Source: Candidatus Thalassarchaeum sp.
Lineage (GTDB): Archaea > Thermoplasmatota > Poseidoniia > Poseidoniales > Thalassarchaeaceae
DNA length: 33,877 nt
NCBI GenBank assembly: GCA_030748335.1
Contig: JASMMD010000016.1
Span: 1 to 33,877, forward strand
Reading direction: 5' to 3'
Position 1 is the first letter of the stretch. Each line of letters starts with the position of its first letter. Under the pieces are notes generated by a model. The model saw nothing but the letters and a program-made list of their open reading frames with translations. It was not told where the DNA came from and did not search any database. The position numbers and the translations under genes are program-made. Shown in pieces: positions 2,496 through 17,011 of this stretch.

Positions 2496-2924
2496 TCACT
2501 CCTCTTCCCACTCGTCCCAGTCGCCGTCGCCGTCTTCTCCGACGGTGACGGACCCTCCAGCTGCCTCTACCTTCTCGATGGCGCGGGCGCTAGCCTCGGC
2601 GACGGTGATGTTGATGGCGCGGTCGATTCTGCCCTTGCCGAGCAGCTTGTCGTAGCCCTTCTCGCCGAGATTTATGGAATCGCCCTCAGCGAGCTCCTGC
2701 ACCTCTTGCAGGTTGATTGAGACGTTCACGTTGCGCAGGCTGGGGTGTCGGTTGAAGCCGTACATGCCCCAGTGTCTGGGCATGTACTTCAGTCGCGTCA
2801 TCAGCCTGTGCTTGTTGATTCCCGCGTTGCCGCGGCCGCCTCTCTTGCCAGCCCCTCTGCCGGCCTTCTTGCCACGGCCGTGATAGCGGCTGCGACCTCT
2901 GAACTTGTTCGTTCGTGAAACCAT
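2496..2924 (-). CDS. rpl15: Large ribosomal subunit protein uL15
   Basis: 142 aa. The Gly/Arg-rich N-terminus (HGRGKKAGRGAGKRGGRG) is the rRNA-penetrating tail typical of uL15, followed by the conserved archaeal stretch around RHWGMYGFNRHPSLRN. The C-terminus ends in a strongly acidic tail (DGDGDWDEWEEE), uncommon for an rRNA-binding protein but in line with other acidic termini in this operon. The stop lies 5 nt before the secY start, and uL30 is 9 nt upstream, so the genes are very probably cotranscribed. Confidence 0.95.
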   Translation of the reverse strand: MVSRTNKFRGRSRYHGRGKKAGRGAGKRGGRGNAGINKHRLMTRLKYMPRHWGMYGFNRHPSLRNVNVSINLQEVQELAEGDSINLGEKGYDKLLGKGRIDRAINITVAEASARAIEKVEAAGGSVTVGEDGDGDWDEWEEE

Positions 2925-2933
2925 GGCTATCCC

Positions 2934-3404
2934 TCAGATCATCCTTCCCACGAGGTCTGCTATCGCCTCGCCCCTGAATCCCAGAGCGCCACCAACAGAG
3001 AAGCTGCGCTTGATGCCGCCCCAGCCCTTGGCCCCCCTTGGCGGGTGCAGCCGGAATACTGGTTTCATCCCCTCGACGTCGCTGGTTCGGGCATCGCCTG
3101 AGGCGATGGCTTTCGATAGCGCGTTTATGGTCGAGAATTCGCTTCCAGACTTGATGATGGCGTTGGTGATTGGCTTGTCTCCAATCATGCGACCTCTCTG
3201 TGAGATGAGTTCGGAGATGGTGTCCGCGTCGGCCTCGCCCCATGTAACGTAGTCCTTGGCCTTCTTCAGCATCCCGACGTAGGCAGGGGTGTCGGGCACC
3301 AGTACGGCGTGGTTGACCTTGGTCAGGTTGAGCATCGACATGGTGTCGCGAATCTTCGGCTTGACACCGCGATCGCTGCGGACGCGTATCACTAGGAAGG
3401 TCAT
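2934..3404 (-). CDS. rpl30: Large ribosomal subunit protein uL30
   Basis: 156 aa, the long archaeal/eukaryotic form (bacterial uL30 is about 60 aa). The N-terminal beta strand FLVIRVRSDRG, the LNLTKVNHAVLVPDT segment and the C-terminal HPPRGAKGWGGIKRSF block fit archaeal uL30. It overlaps the uS5 stop by 4 nt (ATGA-type coupling), so its translation is probably coupled to uS5. Position between uS5 and uL15 is the standard spc-cluster order. Confidence 0.94.
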   Translation of the reverse strand: MTFLVIRVRSDRGVKPKIRDTMSMLNLTKVNHAVLVPDTPAYVGMLKKAKDYVTWGEADADTISELISQRGRMIGDKPITNAIIKSGSEFSTINALSKAIASGDARTSDVEGMKPVFRLHPPRGAKGWGGIKRSFSVGGALGFRGEAIADLVGRMI

Positions 3405-4204
3405 CTGATGATCCTCCCCTCAGTGATGTTGAGCCTAGTGCGGTCGGCCTCAGTGATTCGGGTCCGATTGAGCTCGACCAGCGCATTGAAGGTGGCGCGA
3501 GCGAAGTTGATTGTGGTCCGGGTCTGTCCCGCCGAGCGCGACCAGACGTCGGTGATACCGGCTAGGTCTAGGACTCTACGACCGTAGTCTCCAATGACAA
3601 GGCCCTTGCCCGCGGGTGCAGGCATCAGTGTGACTCTGGTCGAGCCCGAGTGTCCGGTCACCTTGAATGGGACGCTGGTTCCAGGACCCTCTGAGGACTC
3701 CCATGAGCCATTGCCACGCATCACGGTGACGAGATTGAGTTTGGCCTTGTCAATGGCCTTACGGATGGTGCTAGCAACCTCTTTGCCCTTACATACGGAC
3801 AGGCCGATGTATCCGTCCCCGTTGCCGACGGCGCAGAGCACGTTGAATCTCACCCTGCGGCCTGAGTCAGTCATCCTCTGAATCATGTTGACTGAGAGCA
3901 CGTCGTCGGTCAGGTCGGGCAGTAGCGCGTCAACAATCTCGACCTCGCGTACGGGCAGACCAGTGTCTAGGGCCTGCTCGTAGGTGTAGACCTCTCCGCT
4001 GGCGACCATTCTGCCTAGGCGCGTGCGGGGCTGCCATGCCCTCAGCGCGGCCAGTGGGTCGGGGCCCCGGCGGCGACGGGCGTCGCCTTCCTGCTCCTCC
4101 TGGGGTGCCAGTGCCATGGCTAGGCCCGGAGCTAGGTTGACGGGTTCTTCGATGGGCTCCTCTGAGGGCTCCTCTGTTGGCTGCTCTGCCGGTTCCTCGC
4201 TCAT
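3401..4204 (-). CDS. rps5: Small ribosomal subunit protein uS5 with acidic N-terminal extension
   Basis: 267 aa from the chosen ATG at 4204; the tracked start 4213 is an upstream GTG. The ATG follows the uL18 stop directly and has GAGGGTG upstream. The conserved double-stranded-RNA-binding and S5 C-terminal domains are clear (GNGDGYIGLSVCKGKE; GSTRVTLMPAPAGKGLV). Ahead of them lies about 60 residues of low-complexity EEP repeats (EEPSEEPIEEP) and a short basic segment RRRRG. The extension is clean in frame. Uptake-independent function is translational accuracy at the mRNA entry side. Confidence 0.94.
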   Translation of the reverse strand: MSEEPAEQPTEEPSEEPIEEPVNLAPGLAMALAPQEEQEGDARRRRGPDPLAALRAWQPRTRLGRMVASGEVYTYEQALDTGLPVREVEIVDALLPDLTDDVLSVNMIQRMTDSGRRVRFNVLCAVGNGDGYIGLSVCKGKEVASTIRKAIDKAKLNLVTVMRGNGSWESSEGPGTSVPFKVTGHSGSTRVTLMPAPAGKGLVIGDYGRRVLDLAGITDVWSRSAGQTRTTINFARATFNALVELNRTRITEADRTRLNITEGRIIR

Positions 4205-4712: not shown

Positions 4713-5188
4713 CACTCATCACCTCCTAGCGAAATTTCGTCTAGCTCCATATTTGATCGCATATGAGCTATCGATCTGTATGAGCCGCCCTTCGACTTGC
4801 GGTAGTAGTAGCGGTACTGCGACGGAGTCAAGGTTCCGCTCGATCGAAGTTCCTTGAGTTCCCTGCGCTGAGCCCTAATCAGGCTCATCCAGCGCTGCTT
4901 CTTCGGGTTGCGTGAGTTGGCGCTGCCCTTGCGCGAGCCGTGGCCCTTGCGGCGGCCCTTCGACCTCTGGGCCGCTGCCTTGCGAGCCCTCACTCGACTG
5001 GTTCCCTTAATCGGCTTGGCCCTGATCAGGCCCTCCTCAATCAGTTCCCTGATGTCGTCCTTCTGGACGGCGCTCGAGACCTCGTCGAGGTAGTCCGGGT
5101 GGATCCAGACGCGGTGGACACCAACCTGCCTGCCTTCCTTCCTAGAGAGTATCTGGGCAGCCATCCGCTTCTGGTTGGTGATCATCAT
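4712..5188 (-). CDS. rpl19e: Large ribosomal subunit protein eL19
   Basis: 158 aa, a protein shared only by archaea and eukaryotes. The N-terminal globular part (MAAQILSRKEGRQVGVHRVW), the basic middle (RKAAAQRSKGRRKGHGSRKG) and the long C-terminal helix with RRELKELRSSGTL are all present. Two ATGs in tandem open the frame; the first is kept because GGGGG lies 8 nt ahead of it. Overlaps the eL32 stop. Confidence 0.95.
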   Translation of the reverse strand: MMITNQKRMAAQILSRKEGRQVGVHRVWIHPDYLDEVSSAVQKDDIRELIEEGLIRAKPIKGTSRVRARKAAAQRSKGRRKGHGSRKGSANSRNPKKQRWMSLIRAQRRELKELRSSGTLTPSQYRYYYRKSKGGSYRSIAHMRSNMELDEISLGGDE

Positions 5189-5835
5189 TGCAAGTCCCCC
5201 TTGCGCTCGAAGCGCCTCCGATTCAGTACCCTGAGCCCTAGGTCGTCGGCGCGGTCGTGAATCTGCGCTCGCTTCCTGTTACCGACCTTGGAGCCGATGC
5301 GGACAGCCTGACGCTCTGGGTCGATGCCGTCGAGGTCGGCTGGCTTGTGCACCATGACCTCCTTGAACCCTGATGGGTGCAGGCCTCTGACGGATGCGAT
5401 TTTGCGGTATCCAACCCTAGCCATGGGAGAGCGGTACTTGCGATTGACTCGCTGGCTCGACTGCATGCCCTTCGGCTTCCTCCAACCGGTCTTGGAGAGT
5501 CTTCTGTAACGGAACCACTCCTGTCTCCTGAAAGCGGGCTGCTTCTTCTTCTGAGCGTTCAGCAACTCTATGTCAGAGATTGTCGAGTCGTCGAGAACTG
5601 GCTTCTGCCGGGCGACGTGGAAGTCATCCCACTCGTCGTCGAAGAAGTCGTCATCGGCATCGAAGTCGTCGTCCTCGCCAACCTCTTCTTCGTAGTCTGG
5701 CTCCGGTTCGGAAGCGCCGCCGTCCTCGACTAATCGGTCGATCAGCTCTGCCTTCTTGCCGGAGACGGGCAGCCCGCGCTCGCGCAGGATGTCCTTGAGT
5801 TGGGCGACGGTGAGTCCCTCGTATTCCTCGTTCAT
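5185..5835 (-). CDS. rpl32e: Large ribosomal subunit protein eL32 with N-terminal SAP-like domain
   Basis: 216 aa from the ATG at 5835, 4 nt after the uL6 stop. The tracked start at 6081 lies inside uL6 and is not credible. The C-terminal ~120 residues are eL32 (FRRQEWFRYRRLSKTGWRKP; VRGLHPSGFKEVMVHK). The first ~37 residues (LTVAQLKDILRERGLPVSGK, then AELIDRLVE) match the SAP helix-turn-helix nucleic-acid-binding pattern. A very acidic linker (EEEVGEDDDFDADDDFFDD) joins the two. Haloarchaeal eL32 also carries an N-terminal extra domain, so extensions here have precedent; the SAP identity is my reading of the motif. Confidence 0.9.
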   Translation of the reverse strand: MNEEYEGLTVAQLKDILRERGLPVSGKKAELIDRLVEDGGASEPEPDYEEEVGEDDDFDADDDFFDDEWDDFHVARQKPVLDDSTISDIELLNAQKKKQPAFRRQEWFRYRRLSKTGWRKPKGMQSSQRVNRKYRSPMARVGYRKIASVRGLHPSGFKEVMVHKPADLDGIDPERQAVRIGSKVGNRKRAQIHDRADDLGLRVLNRRRFERKGDLQ

Positions 5836-5839
5836 TCTA

Positions 5840-6391
5840 TCATACTCCCTTTGAGACGATGTAGATTCCATCTTGGAAGACTCGTCTGTCTCGTTTCTTG
5901 ATTTTGCAAGCACGCTCGATGTTAGCAGCCGTCTGACCGACCTTCTCGCGGTCGGCTCCCTTGACCACCACATCGGTCTTGTTCTCGACGCGGACCTCGA
6001 CCTCAGCAGGGGTCCAGGGCAGCGGTGCCACTCGAGGGACCTTTTCGCCGAACAGGTTGGTGATTGTGAACCGCTTGCCATCCACCTTGAGGCTCATGGG
6101 GAAGTGGCTGAATACCGCCTTCAGTCGATACTCAAAGCCCTCGTCGACGCCGCGGACCATGTTTCTCAGATGCGCGGCCCAAGTCCCTGCGAGGGCCTTG
6201 TCGGAGCGTCGAGGGAGATTGGTGAATACCTCTAGTGCTCCCTCGCCCGTCCTGACCTCGACCTTGTGGTGACGGAACTCGCGAGATAGTGTCTGCTCGT
6301 CCTTGGAAATCGTCACGACATCACCATCCATGCTCGTGCTCACGCCTTCGGGGAGTGCGATTGAGTGCGAGATGTGGTCAAGTTTCGGCAT
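5840..6391 (-). CDS. rpl6: Large ribosomal subunit protein uL6
   Basis: 183 aa, two tandem alpha/beta L6 repeats. The N-terminal PEGVSTSMDGDVVTISKDEQ strand pair and the second-repeat KTDVVVKGADREKVGQTAANIE helix are characteristic. GGAGGG lies about 5 nt before the ATG. Sits between uS8 (12 nt away) and eL32 (4 nt). The protein contacts the sarcin-ricin loop region of the large subunit. Confidence 0.95.
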   Translation of the reverse strand: MPKLDHISHSIALPEGVSTSMDGDVVTISKDEQTLSREFRHHKVEVRTGEGALEVFTNLPRRSDKALAGTWAAHLRNMVRGVDEGFEYRLKAVFSHFPMSLKVDGKRFTITNLFGEKVPRVAPLPWTPAEVEVRVENKTDVVVKGADREKVGQTAANIERACKIKKRDRRVFQDGIYIVSKGV

Positions 6392-12662: not shown

Positions 12663-12674
12663 ACTCTCACCTCA

Positions 12675-12965
12675 TCAGAACGCGCCCAGCTTGAGCGCGG
12701 CCTCCTCTGCATCGTAGCCCTCGGCAAGGCGCACACTGGCGTGCTTGCCGGTGATCGTGAATCTGGTGTTCACCTTGTCCACCTTGACGTCGAACATCTG
12801 CTCGACGGCTTCTCGGATTTGCGGCTTCGTCGCTTCCTTCCGGACGATGAACTCGATACGGTTGTTGTTTTCCTTGTAGCCGCCGTCCTCGTCTGCGACA
12901 CGGCGCGCCTCGAGAGTCTTCTCGGTAATCCAAGGCATGATGATTATGTCATACGGATCGGTCAT
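12675..12965 (-). CDS. rpl23: Large ribosomal subunit protein uL23
   Basis: 96 aa from the ATG at 12965; the tracked start 13004 would lie within uL4. GGAGTGAT is found 5 nt upstream, and the uL4 stop is 5 nt away. The core (IIMPWITEKTLEARR, EFIVRKEATKPQIREAVEQM, TRFTITGKHASVRL) is typical, as is the ending LKLGAF. uL23 forms the docking site at the exit tunnel for SRP and the Sec translocon. Confidence 0.95.
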   Translation of the reverse strand: MTDPYDIIIMPWITEKTLEARRVADEDGGYKENNNRIEFIVRKEATKPQIREAVEQMFDVKVDKVNTRFTITGKHASVRLAEGYDAEEAALKLGAF

Positions 12966-13853: not shown

Positions 13854-14930
13854 TCACGCTCCCTGCTTGCTCGAGGTGCTCACGTAGGTGATGTCGACCT
13901 CGGGTTTGGCCACCCTAGGGCGGATGGCATCCCGGAACCTCAGCATCCGCTTGGAGGGACCGGGCAGACTGCCCTGGATTAGCATGTATGGATTGGTCAC
14001 CTCGCCGTAGTTGAGGAAGCCGCCAGCGGGGGTTATGTCAGACTCCCCTGGGTCGGAGATTCTCAGGATGCGTTTATTCAGCTCGGTTCGGTTGTGGTAG
14101 CCGACTTGGCCAGCCTGACGGATGGTCTTGCGGACGTAGCGGGTGCCGAAATCACCCATGTTTCCACCTTGTCGTCTTCGCTTGCTGTTCTTGTGAGAGA
14201 GGAGTTTGATACCCCACCTCTTGATTGAACCCTGCCAGCCCTTGCCCTTGGTCACACCTGCAACATCGATCTCCTGACCGGTCTGGTAGACGTCATCCAG
14301 CGTGATGGCCCCACCCAACCTCTCCTCGGCCCAGTCCAGCTTGGCGGCGTTGTCACCTCCAGCCAGTGCGACCTCCATGATCTCGGGGGTCTTGCTGGAG
14401 ACACTCTTGACGAGGGCAGGTTGTGTGGAAACTATCAGGCGGACCTCACAGAGGTCTGCCTCACGCAGGGCCTTCAGGGCCTCCTCAGGAGAACTATCCC
14501 CTCTGACTGGGATGCGGCCAGCGCGCTTGGAGGGTTTACGGCCCTCCTCTGCGTCGCGCTCGCCTCGACTCTGGTTGGCCAAGCGGGGCATCAGGCCCTC
14601 GGGGCCGCCGTCAGAGTCGTGCCAGGCCTCGCCTGCAGTCTGCATCCCGTAGGGAGTCATGCGGTAGCCGCGCACGGCTAGGACGCTCATCGGAGGGGCC
14701 TCGACGACGGTGACGGCCTTGCGAACCTCTTGCTGGGCCGAAGGTGAGTGAGGGTTGTTGTCGCGAATTAGGATGTGGGTCATGCCGGCCTTCCAGCCGG
14801 CGAATCCCTGAACCCTGACCTCGGAGGAGTCCGACTCAGGCCAGGAGCTGATTCTACTGAACTGTCGGTTCGCCCTCTTGCGAGGGCTATAGCCCATGCT
14901 ACCACGGCGGGGTTTGCTGCGGTCTGCCAT
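13854..14930 (-). CDS. rpl3: Large ribosomal subunit protein uL3
   Basis: 358 aa from the ATG at 14930 (MADRSKPRRGSMGYSPRKRA), the normal archaeal start; the tracked start 14975 adds an unconserved leader. GGAGG lies 7 nt before the ATG. The core is clear: GFAGWKAGMTHILIRDN and KGKGWQGSIKRWGIKLLSHK with the RRQGGNMGDFGTRYV loop that reaches the peptidyl-transferase centre. First gene of the operon, so its translation start is a natural control point; the leader can hide this Shine-Dalgarno (see separate feature). Confidence 0.95.
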   Translation of the reverse strand: MADRSKPRRGSMGYSPRKRANRQFSRISSWPESDSSEVRVQGFAGWKAGMTHILIRDNNPHSPSAQQEVRKAVTVVEAPPMSVLAVRGYRMTPYGMQTAGEAWHDSDGGPEGLMPRLANQSRGERDAEEGRKPSKRAGRIPVRGDSSPEEALKALREADLCEVRLIVSTQPALVKSVSSKTPEIMEVALAGGDNAAKLDWAEERLGGAITLDDVYQTGQEIDVAGVTKGKGWQGSIKRWGIKLLSHKNSKRRRQGGNMGDFGTRYVRKTIRQAGQVGYHNRTELNKRILRISDPGESDITPAGGFLNYGEVTNPYMLIQGSLPGPSKRMLRFRDAIRPRVAKPEVDITYVSTSSKQGA

Positions 14931-14933
14931 ACT

Positions 14934-15084
14934 GGTTCCTCCGGGCGTTACCGGCATCGGGCCGCAAAACGGCACTCCACCGGGCCCACTGCGTCAAGGA
15001 GGAACCGTGACACCGGGCCCGGGCCGCGAGTGCGGCCGGGGCGTGAAGGGTGCTTCAGCAGTGCCTATTGGTGTCTGGTTCCTC
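14934..15084 (-). promoter_or_regulatory. uL3 operon leader with alternative hairpins around the Shine-Dalgarno
   Basis: In minus-strand RNA the segment GGTTCCTCC (15006-14998) is perfectly complementary to the uL3 Shine-Dalgarno region GGAGGAACC (14942-14934). It is also complementary over 8 bases to an upstream copy GAGGAACC (15084-15077). That upstream stem continues as GACACC/GGTGTC (15075-15070 with 15014-15009), giving 14 pairs with one small internal loop. Inside lies a third hairpin GGCCGC-ACTC-GCGGCC (15037-15022). The two outer pairings exclude each other. Seen: the complementarity. Inferred: translational or autogenous control. Confidence 0.6.
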
Positions 15085-15110
15085 ACGTAGTGAGCGGCCT
15101 TCCGACAAAC

Positions 15111-15137
15111 ATACCCTATTTGAACGAATCGGGGTAT
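15111..15137 (-). promoter_or_regulatory. Ribosomal operon promoter, TATA box within an inverted repeat
   Basis: TTCAAATA on the minus strand (15124-15117) is a good archaeal TATA-like box. It would place transcription start near 15093, about ten bases upstream of the first arm of the leader hairpin. The box is flanked by ATACCC (15111-15116) and GGGTAT (15132-15137), a 6-bp inverted repeat that could bind a dimeric regulator or be coincidental. No start site was mapped. Confidence 0.45.
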
Positions 15138-15146
15138 GACCCGCAC

Positions 15147-15196
15147 CACCCCTACGGGGTGTAAGTGGAATCCCGGACTTGTGCAACGATTTAGAA
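15147..15196 (+). promoter_or_regulatory. Helicase promoter and upstream hairpin
   Basis: ATTTAGAA (15189-15196) is a TATA-like box about 27 nt before the helicase ATG, so the transcript may be leaderless or nearly so. A hairpin CACCCC-TAC-GGGGTG (15147-15161) lies just upstream, in the region shared with the divergent ribosomal operon. Confidence 0.35.
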
Positions 15197-15220: not shown

Positions 15221-17011
15221 ATGCGGTACGGAATACGCCATCCGAGTCTCACCTCGGGGGTAATCGAGGCACGTGCCTACCAACTCGAGGCGGCGGACGA
15301 GGCGCTCTCCGGCTCGACGATGCTGGTACTGCCCACCGCGGCTGGCAAGACAGTGGTGGCCTGGATGGTGATAGCCGACCGGTTGGAGAGCAGCGACGGG
15401 TGGGTCTTGATCGTCGCCCCGACCGTTGCCCTAGTCGAGCAGCACCTGCGTGGTGTCGGGCCCGTGCTGGCTGACGCCGCTTCGGTGAATCCGATATCCA
15501 TTACAGGTCAGAACCCGGTGGCCAAGCGCGCTAATCTATGGGGGTCTTCCAGACTCGTCGTAGCCACGCCCCAGGTCGTCAGGAACGATGTAATTAGAGG
15601 CGTCCTAGACCTCTCTGGCTGCGCACTGCTAGTGGTTGACGAGGCGCATCACTCCACGGGCGACCATGCCATGGCGCAGGTCGGCGATTTGTATCTGTCG
15701 CAGACCTCCGAGCCCCTCGTCCTCGCCACCACGGCGAGCCCGGGCTCAAGGACCAATCAGGTCGAGGAAGTCTGCGACCATCTGGGCATAGGCAGAATCC
15801 ACATCAGGACCGGTGGCGATGCGATGGTGGCCAAGCACCTCGCTGGACTGGAGGTGCAGGAAGTAAAGGTCGAGGTCCCAGTTCAGATTAGAGAACTTGC
15901 GGAGCCCCTCGTGATGTGGCAGAGCGGGATTGTCGATCGCGAGAGGCGGCTCGGCAGGTACGTGATGCCGGGTGTAATTAGCCACGCCGGCCTCTCCAAT
16001 GCGATGGAACGGGCCCAGCAAGCGATATCGAGGGGCGAGTCCAGCGCCTACCAGTCAGTATCGAGGATAGCCACGGCGATGCGCTTGCATCACCTGATCA
16101 ATCATCTGCTTTGTCAGGGTGTCGCCGCGTCCAGAGAGTTCCTTGAGCGCCTCTCCAGAAGCGAGCAGTCCCAGAACAAGTCGACACGTAACTTCCTGAG
16201 GGACAGGAGGGTGTCGAGTCTGCGAGCGAACCTGTCTGAGATGGAAGAGGCACACAGCAAGGTGGGCGCGGTACGCAGGCTAATCTCGGAGAGGCTTCGC
16301 AGGGATTCAGGCTCACGCGTCATCGTGTTCGCAACTTTCAGGGACACCGTCGCTGCCGTCGAGGAGTCCCTCGGAGAGCTAGAAGGAGTTCGTCCGATTC
16401 AGTTCGTCGGGCAGTCCAGCCGCGAGGGCAGTGGAGGACTAACTCCCAAGCAGCAAATCGCTAGGCTTGACGAGTTCAGATCGGGTGCTGCCAACGTCCT
16501 AGTAGCGACCTCGGTAGGAGAGGAGGGTCTAGATATTCCCAGTGCCGATCTAGTCATATTCTACGAGCCGGTGTCCAGCGAGATACGGACCATACAGAGG
16601 CGAGGGAGAACGGGTAGGCATAGGGAGGGTGAGGTCGTCGTCCTGATAGCCGAGGGTACTCGGGACGAGGGTGCTAGGGCATCCGCCGAGAGGCGTGAAG
16701 AGTTCATGCAGCGGGCCGTCCACAGGGTCAGCAGGAAATTGCCTCGCAGCCATCACAGGGATCTCTCGAACCTAGGCAGGTTCGAGGTGGTCTCCGAGAG
16801 TGGTTCCGTCCCGGCATCCGAGTTCGTCTCCGAACAGCGGGAGATACACAGGGTGGAAATCAACGAGTCTGACGACAACGAAACCGTAGATAGTAGCGGC
16901 CCTCCCGCTCTGCCCCCAGAGACATTCAGAGCCAAGGGGCAGACTGGGCTGGAGCAGTTTGGCGTCGAATCAGTTATGCCCGTAGAGAATGGCCTTGAGC
17001 GTGACACTTAG
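15221..17011 (+). CDS. Hef/FANCM-like superfamily 2 DNA helicase without nuclease domain
   Basis: 596 aa. Helicase motifs are in order: Walker A LPTAAGKT (37-44), DEAH (140-143), motif III TASPG (~171), motif V SVGEEGLDIPSADLVIFYEP (431-450) and motif VI QRRGRTGR (459-466). GEEGLDIP followed by YEPVSSEIR is characteristic of the Hef/FANCM/Mph1 group, which remodels stalled replication forks. Euryarchaeal Hef usually continues into an XPF-type nuclease; here the protein ends with a ~90-residue low-complexity tail. That tail holds QTGLEQF (574-580), which resembles a PCNA-interacting motif. Convergent with the next gene with zero bases between stops. Confidence 0.85.
   Translation: MRYGIRHPSLTSGVIEARAYQLEAADEALSGSTMLVLPTAAGKTVVAWMVIADRLESSDGWVLIVAPTVALVEQHLRGVGPVLADAASVNPISITGQNPVAKRANLWGSSRLVVATPQVVRNDVIRGVLDLSGCALLVVDEAHHSTGDHAMAQVGDLYLSQTSEPLVLATTASPGSRTNQVEEVCDHLGIGRIHIRTGGDAMVAKHLAGLEVQEVKVEVPVQIRELAEPLVMWQSGIVDRERRLGRYVMPGVISHAGLSNAMERAQQAISRGESSAYQSVSRIATAMRLHHLINHLLCQGVAASREFLERLSRSEQSQNKSTRNFLRDRRVSSLRANLSEMEEAHSKVGAVRRLISERLRRDSGSRVIVFATFRDTVAAVEESLGELEGVRPIQFVGQSSREGSGGLTPKQQIARLDEFRSGAANVLVATSVGEEGLDIPSADLVIFYEPVSSEIRTIQRRGRTGRHREGEVVVLIAEGTRDEGARASAERREEFMQRAVHRVSRKLPRSHHRDLSNLGRFEVVSESGSVPASEFVSEQREIHRVEINESDDNETVDSSGPPALPPETFRAKGQTGLEQFGVESVMPVENGLERDT

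Follow-up and report, generated by a model that had tools for sequence, protein, structure and literature searches.

Organization of the uL3 operon and its leader

The DNA analyzed here, a 33,877-nucleotide contig of Candidatus Thalassarchaeum sp. referred to as the window, carries an S10-type ribosomal protein operon on the minus strand. The genes identified were, in order, uL3, uL4, uL2, uS19, uL22, uS3, eIF1 (SUI1), uL14, eS4, uL5, eL32, uL18 and SecY. In all 65 of the 65 loci with enough sequence, uL4 was the next gene after uL3. Two open reading frames, one in the position expected for uL23 (12667-12933, minus strand) and one near the end of the operon (2686-3486, minus strand), had no Pfam match at E 0.001. 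The eL32 protein (encoded at 5185-6081, minus strand) has a SAP domain (PF02037, E 3.5e-18) in a long N-terminal extension, and the contig end (1-224, minus strand) contains the 5' part of an archaeal 16S rRNA gene, shortly downstream of the operon. Upstream of uL3, a divergent helicase reading frame begins at 15221. A perfect palindrome, CACCCCGTAGGGGTG (15147-15161), lies between the helicase gene and the uL3 promoter; it was present in several genera of the Thalassarchaeaceae, was missing from others and is possibly a transcription factor site.

An earlier note on this DNA had proposed that one RNA segment in the uL3 leader can pair either with the Shine-Dalgarno (SD) sequence or with an upstream mimic of it, the stem formed with the mimic being extended by GACACC/GGUGUC. 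These elements were all located. The anti-SD segment, GGUUCCUCC (15006-14998, minus strand), is perfectly complementary to the uL3 SD and to the mimic, GAGGAACCAG (15084-15075, minus strand), of which it is the common partner, and the extension was found at 15075-15070 / 15014-15009 (minus strand). When the leader was subjected to dinucleotide shuffling, 2 of 3000 shuffled sequences contained a comparable 8-mer triple of mimic, anti-SD and target. Three further elements had not been described: a 5' hairpin in competition with the mimic stem for one GAG, an outer stem (GCUCACU/AGUGGGC, 15095-15089 with 14990-14984), and a conserved three-stem core inside the mimic stem. The parts of the leader are listed below. 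Energies and z-scores in the list refer to strand-swap tests, in which the duplex energy of a leader's own strands was compared with that of permuted strands; in the comparison across genera, strands were permuted between 21 Poseidoniales genera. Related genomes are non-independent samples, a problem that permutation between genera lessens and does not remove. Loci L230 and L257-L259 were excluded from the Poseidoniales leader statistics.

15117-15124, minus strand: TATA-like promoter box TTCAAATA, at a fixed spacing to GCUC in relatives
15085-15095, minus strand: P1 5' strand, GCUCACU.CGU, which covaries with the P1 3' strand
15082-15094, minus strand: 5' hairpin, CUCAC-UAC-GUGAG, overlapping the mimic arm; own versus permuted halves, z = -3.6 (Thalassarchaeaceae)
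15077-15084, minus strand: P2 5' strand, GAGGAACC, the SD mimic; lower P2 covariation, z = -5.8; inner CC invariant in 96 of 96 sequences
15070-15076, minus strand: unpaired A (15076), invariant in 96 of 96 sequences, and P3 5' strand, GACACC (15075-15070)
15047-15066, minus strand: P4 hairpin, AGG-CAC-UGC-loop-GCA-C-CCU, with a 3x1 internal loop; GGG/CCC and UGC/GCA covary
15016-15042, minus strand, approximate limits: P5, a variable hairpin; changes on both sides in 9 of 9 helix-5 pairs
15009-15014, minus strand: P3 3' strand, GGUGUC, which pairs with GACACC
14998-15008, minus strand: AC (15008-15007), then P2 3' strand, GGUUCCUC, and an extra C; AC and GG invariant in 96 of 96 sequences
14984-14994, minus strand: P1 3' strand, ACG.C.AGUGGGC, from covariation with the P1 5' strand and from folding
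14951-14983, minus strand, approximate limits: P6 hairpin between the core and the SD; own halves -12.35 versus permuted -9.15 ± 0.44 kcal/mol
14934-14942, minus strand: SD sequence, GGAGGAACC, within GGAGGAACCAG (14942-14932); complementary to 15006-14998
13854-14930, minus strand: uL3 gene, first of the operon (PF00297, E 2.4e-87); ATG at 14930-14928

In 114 of 126 Poseidoniales leaders, the first base of the TATA-like box and the GCUC at the opening of the structure were separated by a distance of exactly 29 nt. Transcription in archaea generally begins some 25 nt downstream of the center of the TATA box. The constant spacing, together with this usual distance, predicts a start near 15095 in the window, which would place the entire structure in the transcript. 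The start downstream of 15006 that the earlier note had held to be fatal to its proposal is thus not what the TATA spacing predicts.

Conservation of the core

The uL3 leaders taken from relatives were strikingly conserved. The core, which consists of CCAGAC, GGGCAAUGC, a loop, GCAUCCC, a hairpin and GUCACGG and is closed by the mimic stem, was found across the Thermoplasmatota. A covariance model of the leader, R1, had matches in 251 of 293 Poseidoniales genomes, nearly always in a single copy, while the re-trained model, R2, matched 106 of 157 genomes of the phylum and 52 of the 86 genera sampled. The uL3 gene was immediately downstream in each of the 40 distant matches that were inspected (two sets of 20). 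The exact core pattern, scanned over about 85,000 species genomes, occurred in at least 117 stretches. Among the 117 matches listed, 114 were consistent with the Thermoplasmatota, and these comprised 103 with uL3 downstream and 11 that were cut by the ends of the sequence; the other three were bacterial chance hits (L089, L163 and L175) that lacked GUCACGG. The covariance models were applied within the Thermoplasmatota, and the other archaeal phyla were covered by the exact-pattern scan alone.

The core ranges over the Poseidoniales, the Methanomassiliicoccales and numerous further families of the phylum. In the family labels used here, f1 is Thalassarchaeum/Thalassarchaeaceae and f2 is Poseidoniaceae, while f27 appears to be Thermoplasmataceae-like, f24 an Aciduliprofundum-like group and f3 MGIII. 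Both the core and its position before uL3 were retained even in families that have no mimic. In Poseidoniales leaders, P1 extends P2 outward and P6 lies between the core and the SD, and both covary.

Other arrangements were seen near the uL3 start in some relatives. The leaders L058, L070, L071 and L293 (f30 and f37) have a second SD-mimic-like arrangement downstream of the core, where a UCUCUC segment has two alternative partners, GAGAGU upstream of it and the SD region, GAGAGGGG. In Methanomassiliicoccales-type leaders (L059-L068, L072-L074 and L294, mostly f17), a conserved hairpin, GCGAGGUUAGCGAAGA.ACCCUCGC, is located just 5' of the uL3 start.

Covariation and invariant residues

A phylum-wide alignment of 96 sequences supported P2, P3, P4 and P5, with 92.8% of the cells paired, changes on both sides in 24 of 29 pairs, and a covariation score of 0.513, compared to 0.144 ± 0.006 for shuffled controls and 0.084 or less for slid controls, figures to be read in the light of the fact that the alignment was fitted to the covariance model, which favors the pairs of that model. 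An independent MAFFT alignment had double changes in 13 of 19 predicted pairs. In the strand-swap test, the extended mimic stem had an energy of -20.7 kcal/mol with its own strands and -14.1 ± 0.7 kcal/mol with permuted strands (z about -10, 21 genera), the corresponding values for lower P2 were -4.3 and -2.4 ± 0.3 kcal/mol, and the P1 strands gave z = -6.0 within f1 and z = -8.75 over all 21 genera. The first P3 pair was G-C in 86 relatives, U-A in seven and A-U in two, the U-A form in f27 reading CCAUAC/GUAACGG and the A-U form CCAAAC/GUUACGG. The UGC/GCA of P4 was replaced elsewhere by UCC/GGA or UUC/GAA, and the 5' hairpin occurred in variants such as CUCG/CGAG and CUCA/UGAG.

A chance inverted repeat, or the ordinary folding of a GC-rich sequence, could be considered for a leader that is GC-rich and has a single-sequence folding z-score of only -2.4 in the window, but the phylum-wide covariation and the constant gene context refute this explanation, the probability of which is negligible.

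Twelve core positions had no variation among the 96 sequences at the precision printed. They include CCA and a C on the 5' side, one G and one C in P4, and a G and ACGG on the 3' side; in addition, the first base of the 3x1 internal loop of P4 was usually C. A compact core with an invariant unpaired A, an invariant AC and covarying stems that close it would also suit a metabolite or ion riboswitch that governs the ribosomal operon, in place of a protein-binding leader, as would the want of clear rRNA mimicry described below. Among the matches listed, however, the element always preceded uL3 and never metabolic or transport genes, and it was nearly always present in a single copy per genome. 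A riboswitch has, in our judgement, a slim chance of being correct. We give similarly low odds to a reading in which the invariant core senses a small molecule or assembly status, and so sets the translation of the main ribosomal protein operon in the Thermoplasmatota, in place of binding a protein that the operon itself encodes.

The same residues bear on a third explanation, that the leader is a structural element which stabilizes the mRNA or makes transcription pause, or that it is bound by a protein from outside the ribosome, with no feedback by a product of the operon. In the Poseidoniales it sits at the predicted 5' end of the mRNA, and a stem at that end could protect the transcript. 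The invariant internal-loop residues nevertheless exceed the needs of a protective stem, and restriction to one operon would not be expected of such an element, which we consider improbable.

Pairing of the Shine-Dalgarno sequence

Taken in full, the proposal of the earlier note is a switch in which GGUUCCUCC alternates between the mimic and the SD, sequestering the latter; it is considered here as the way in which the leader would work in the organism of the window and in the rest of its family. Several observations favor it, 1) the window leader folded at -88.5 kcal/mol when the mimic stem was present and at -87.0 kcal/mol when the SD was sequestered and the 5' hairpin CUCAC/GUGAG had formed, so that the two states are nearly isoenergetic (within 1.5 kcal/mol), 2) the resemblance of mimic and SD was above chance in f1 (p about 0.01), 3) the extra C of CUCC, which lies beyond P2 and faces an unpairable U, A or C on the 5' side, was retained in 119 of 126 leaders, 4) the 5' hairpin fits the off state, excludes lower P2 and covaries in f1, and 5) in g1, the genus of the window, the SD and the 3' arm change together, although only two sub-clades were compared. 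The arm and SD pairs in g1 were UUCCUCC with GGAGGAA, UUUCUCC with GGAGAAA, and GUACCUCC with GGAGGUAC; in one species both strands differ (UUCCUCC versus UUUCUCC and GGAGGAA versus GGAGAAA). The energy of SD pairing in this genus was -14.5 for own strands versus -12.7 ± 0.5 for permuted strands.

Across genera, the evidence is of the opposite kind. The mimic stem was conserved by covariation and the SD helix was not. While P1 and P2 covaried strongly, the pairing of the anti-SD strand with the SD showed no covariation in the 21 genera (own -9.96 versus permuted -9.76 ± 0.31 kcal/mol, z = -0.64). The complementarity to the SD was weak in genera g13, g16 and g19, and forcing the SD pairing in genera other than g1 cost an average of 3-13 kcal/mol. 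In some g3 and g16 leaders, GAG/CUC of lower P2 was changed to GGG/CCC, which kept the stem and lost the match to the SD. Moreover, the core and its uL3 context persist in the families that have no mimic. The compensatory changes anticipated in relatives were therefore found for the mimic stem, whereas the SD pairing was flat over the 21 genera. Taken together, the null result across genera and the local support within g1 make the switch plausible within the Thalassarchaeaceae or the genus of the window and not a conserved function; as the mechanism at work in this organism and family, it is possible and rather doubtful. What stands of the earlier proposal is a putative regulatory RNA leader of an archaeal S10-type operon, while SD sequestration as its general mechanism does not.

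Comparison with known leaders and rRNA

To our knowledge, the archaeal ribosomal operons for which a cis-regulatory leader has been recognized are few. A search of the window leader against Rfam 15, at gathering and at permissive thresholds, gave no family above the cut-off, and no leader family was found by Rfam for 19 distant leaders. The sole Rfam family reported for the window leader, the S6-S18-Chlorobi leader (RF03134), scored 17.1 bits against a cut-off of 47.4 bits (E 1.7) and was attributed to chance.

The closest parallel by position is the Archaeoglobi L4 r-leader candidate, rated borderline and reported from Archaeoglobi only (Eckert and Weinberg 2020, PMC7247131). Like the RNA described here, it is an archaeal leader known from prediction, and it precedes the same operon (rplC, rplD, rplW, rplB); the two were compared by description and Rfam lists only, and homology between them is possible. 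It was the only archaeal uL3 leader found in the literature, coverage of which was partial, and an earlier description may exist. The uL4-regulated S10 leader of E. coli resembles the present RNA, a predicted 5' UTR, in being long, structured and part of the operon that holds uL3 and uL4, but it is a bacterial element that works through transcription attenuation as well, and no sequence, structure or Rfam match to it was found here. Its occurrence is restricted to part of the gammaproteobacteria (review PMC10931766). The archaeal uL1 leaders provide autogenous control by a large-subunit protein (PMC10931766), but they belong to a different gene and their sites closely resemble the rRNA site, whereas the uL3 leader had no clear rRNA match.

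The whole-motif covariance model detected no significant similarity to 23S rRNA. P4 and the helix 96 region of 23S rRNA (L052) have GGGCAAUGC in common, with a G(U/C)A.CC strand after it; the linear score was 14, and 67.7 kb of window sequence gave 13 at most. Mimicry of helix 96 by P4 is suggestive but weak, because the bases of P4 change freely as pairs in relatives and because a deproteination study linked uL3 to stronger density in domain VI, with the exception of H96 (PMC9687910).

Discussion

The leader combines a covariation-supported RNA structure with a steady position before a ribosomal protein gene, both of which are features of ribosomal protein leaders. It is likely to be a phylum-wide, cis-acting leader of the uL3-uL4 operon, the ligand of which is a product of the operon and the read-out of which is lineage specific. 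The inner part of P2, the internal loop formed by A and AC, P3, P4 and P5 would constitute the presumed binding site. By analogy with known ribosomal protein leaders, binding would let the operon's translation follow ribosome assembly through negative feedback, and the leader is probably an old autogenous control on ribosome production.

The constant company of uL3 and uL4, and the analogy with ribosomal protein leaders, make a protein of the operon the likeliest ligand, with uL3 or uL4 to the fore. The uL3 protein is a primary binder encoded by the next gene, and uL4 is the ligand known from E. coli; the location of the leader favors neither. The next gene is a poor guide to the ligand of a leader (Eckert and Weinberg, PMC7247131), and operon splits are uninformative for telling uL3 from uL4 since uL4 always follows uL3. 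In our judgement, uL3 is the leading candidate with somewhat less than an even chance, uL4 is a sizeable possibility and any other ligand a smaller, appreciable one.

The way in which binding would reach the ribosome may differ between lineages. In f27 genomes the core ends near a GGUGA-type SD, which suits direct blocking, and in f24 the end of the core is also close to the SD; in both groups a protein bound to the core could be enough to keep the ribosome off. In the Poseidoniales the core is at the predicted 5' end of the mRNA and the distance from core to SD is mostly 60-90 nt, so that some carrier of the signal would be needed. One visible candidate is the exchange of lower P2 for the 5' hairpin and a CUCC:SD helix: the lower P2 strand CUCC would leave its GAG partner and hide the SD, and the freed GAG would then form the 5' hairpin. 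Since fully formed P2 leaves the SD free, a ligand that stabilized the entire P2 stem would promote translation, the reverse of feedback repression; one that needs only the inner CC/GG pairs could exert control of either sign.

As judged from comparative sequence analysis, the uL3 leader would belong to the ribosomal protein leaders, with no Rfam family of its own and notably deep conservation. At about 75-120 nt and with its invariant residues, it is a well-delimited RNA for tests against uL3 and uL4. In the Thermoplasmatota, a conserved sensor-like core would be coupled to differing, lineage-specific arrangements in the region of the start codon.
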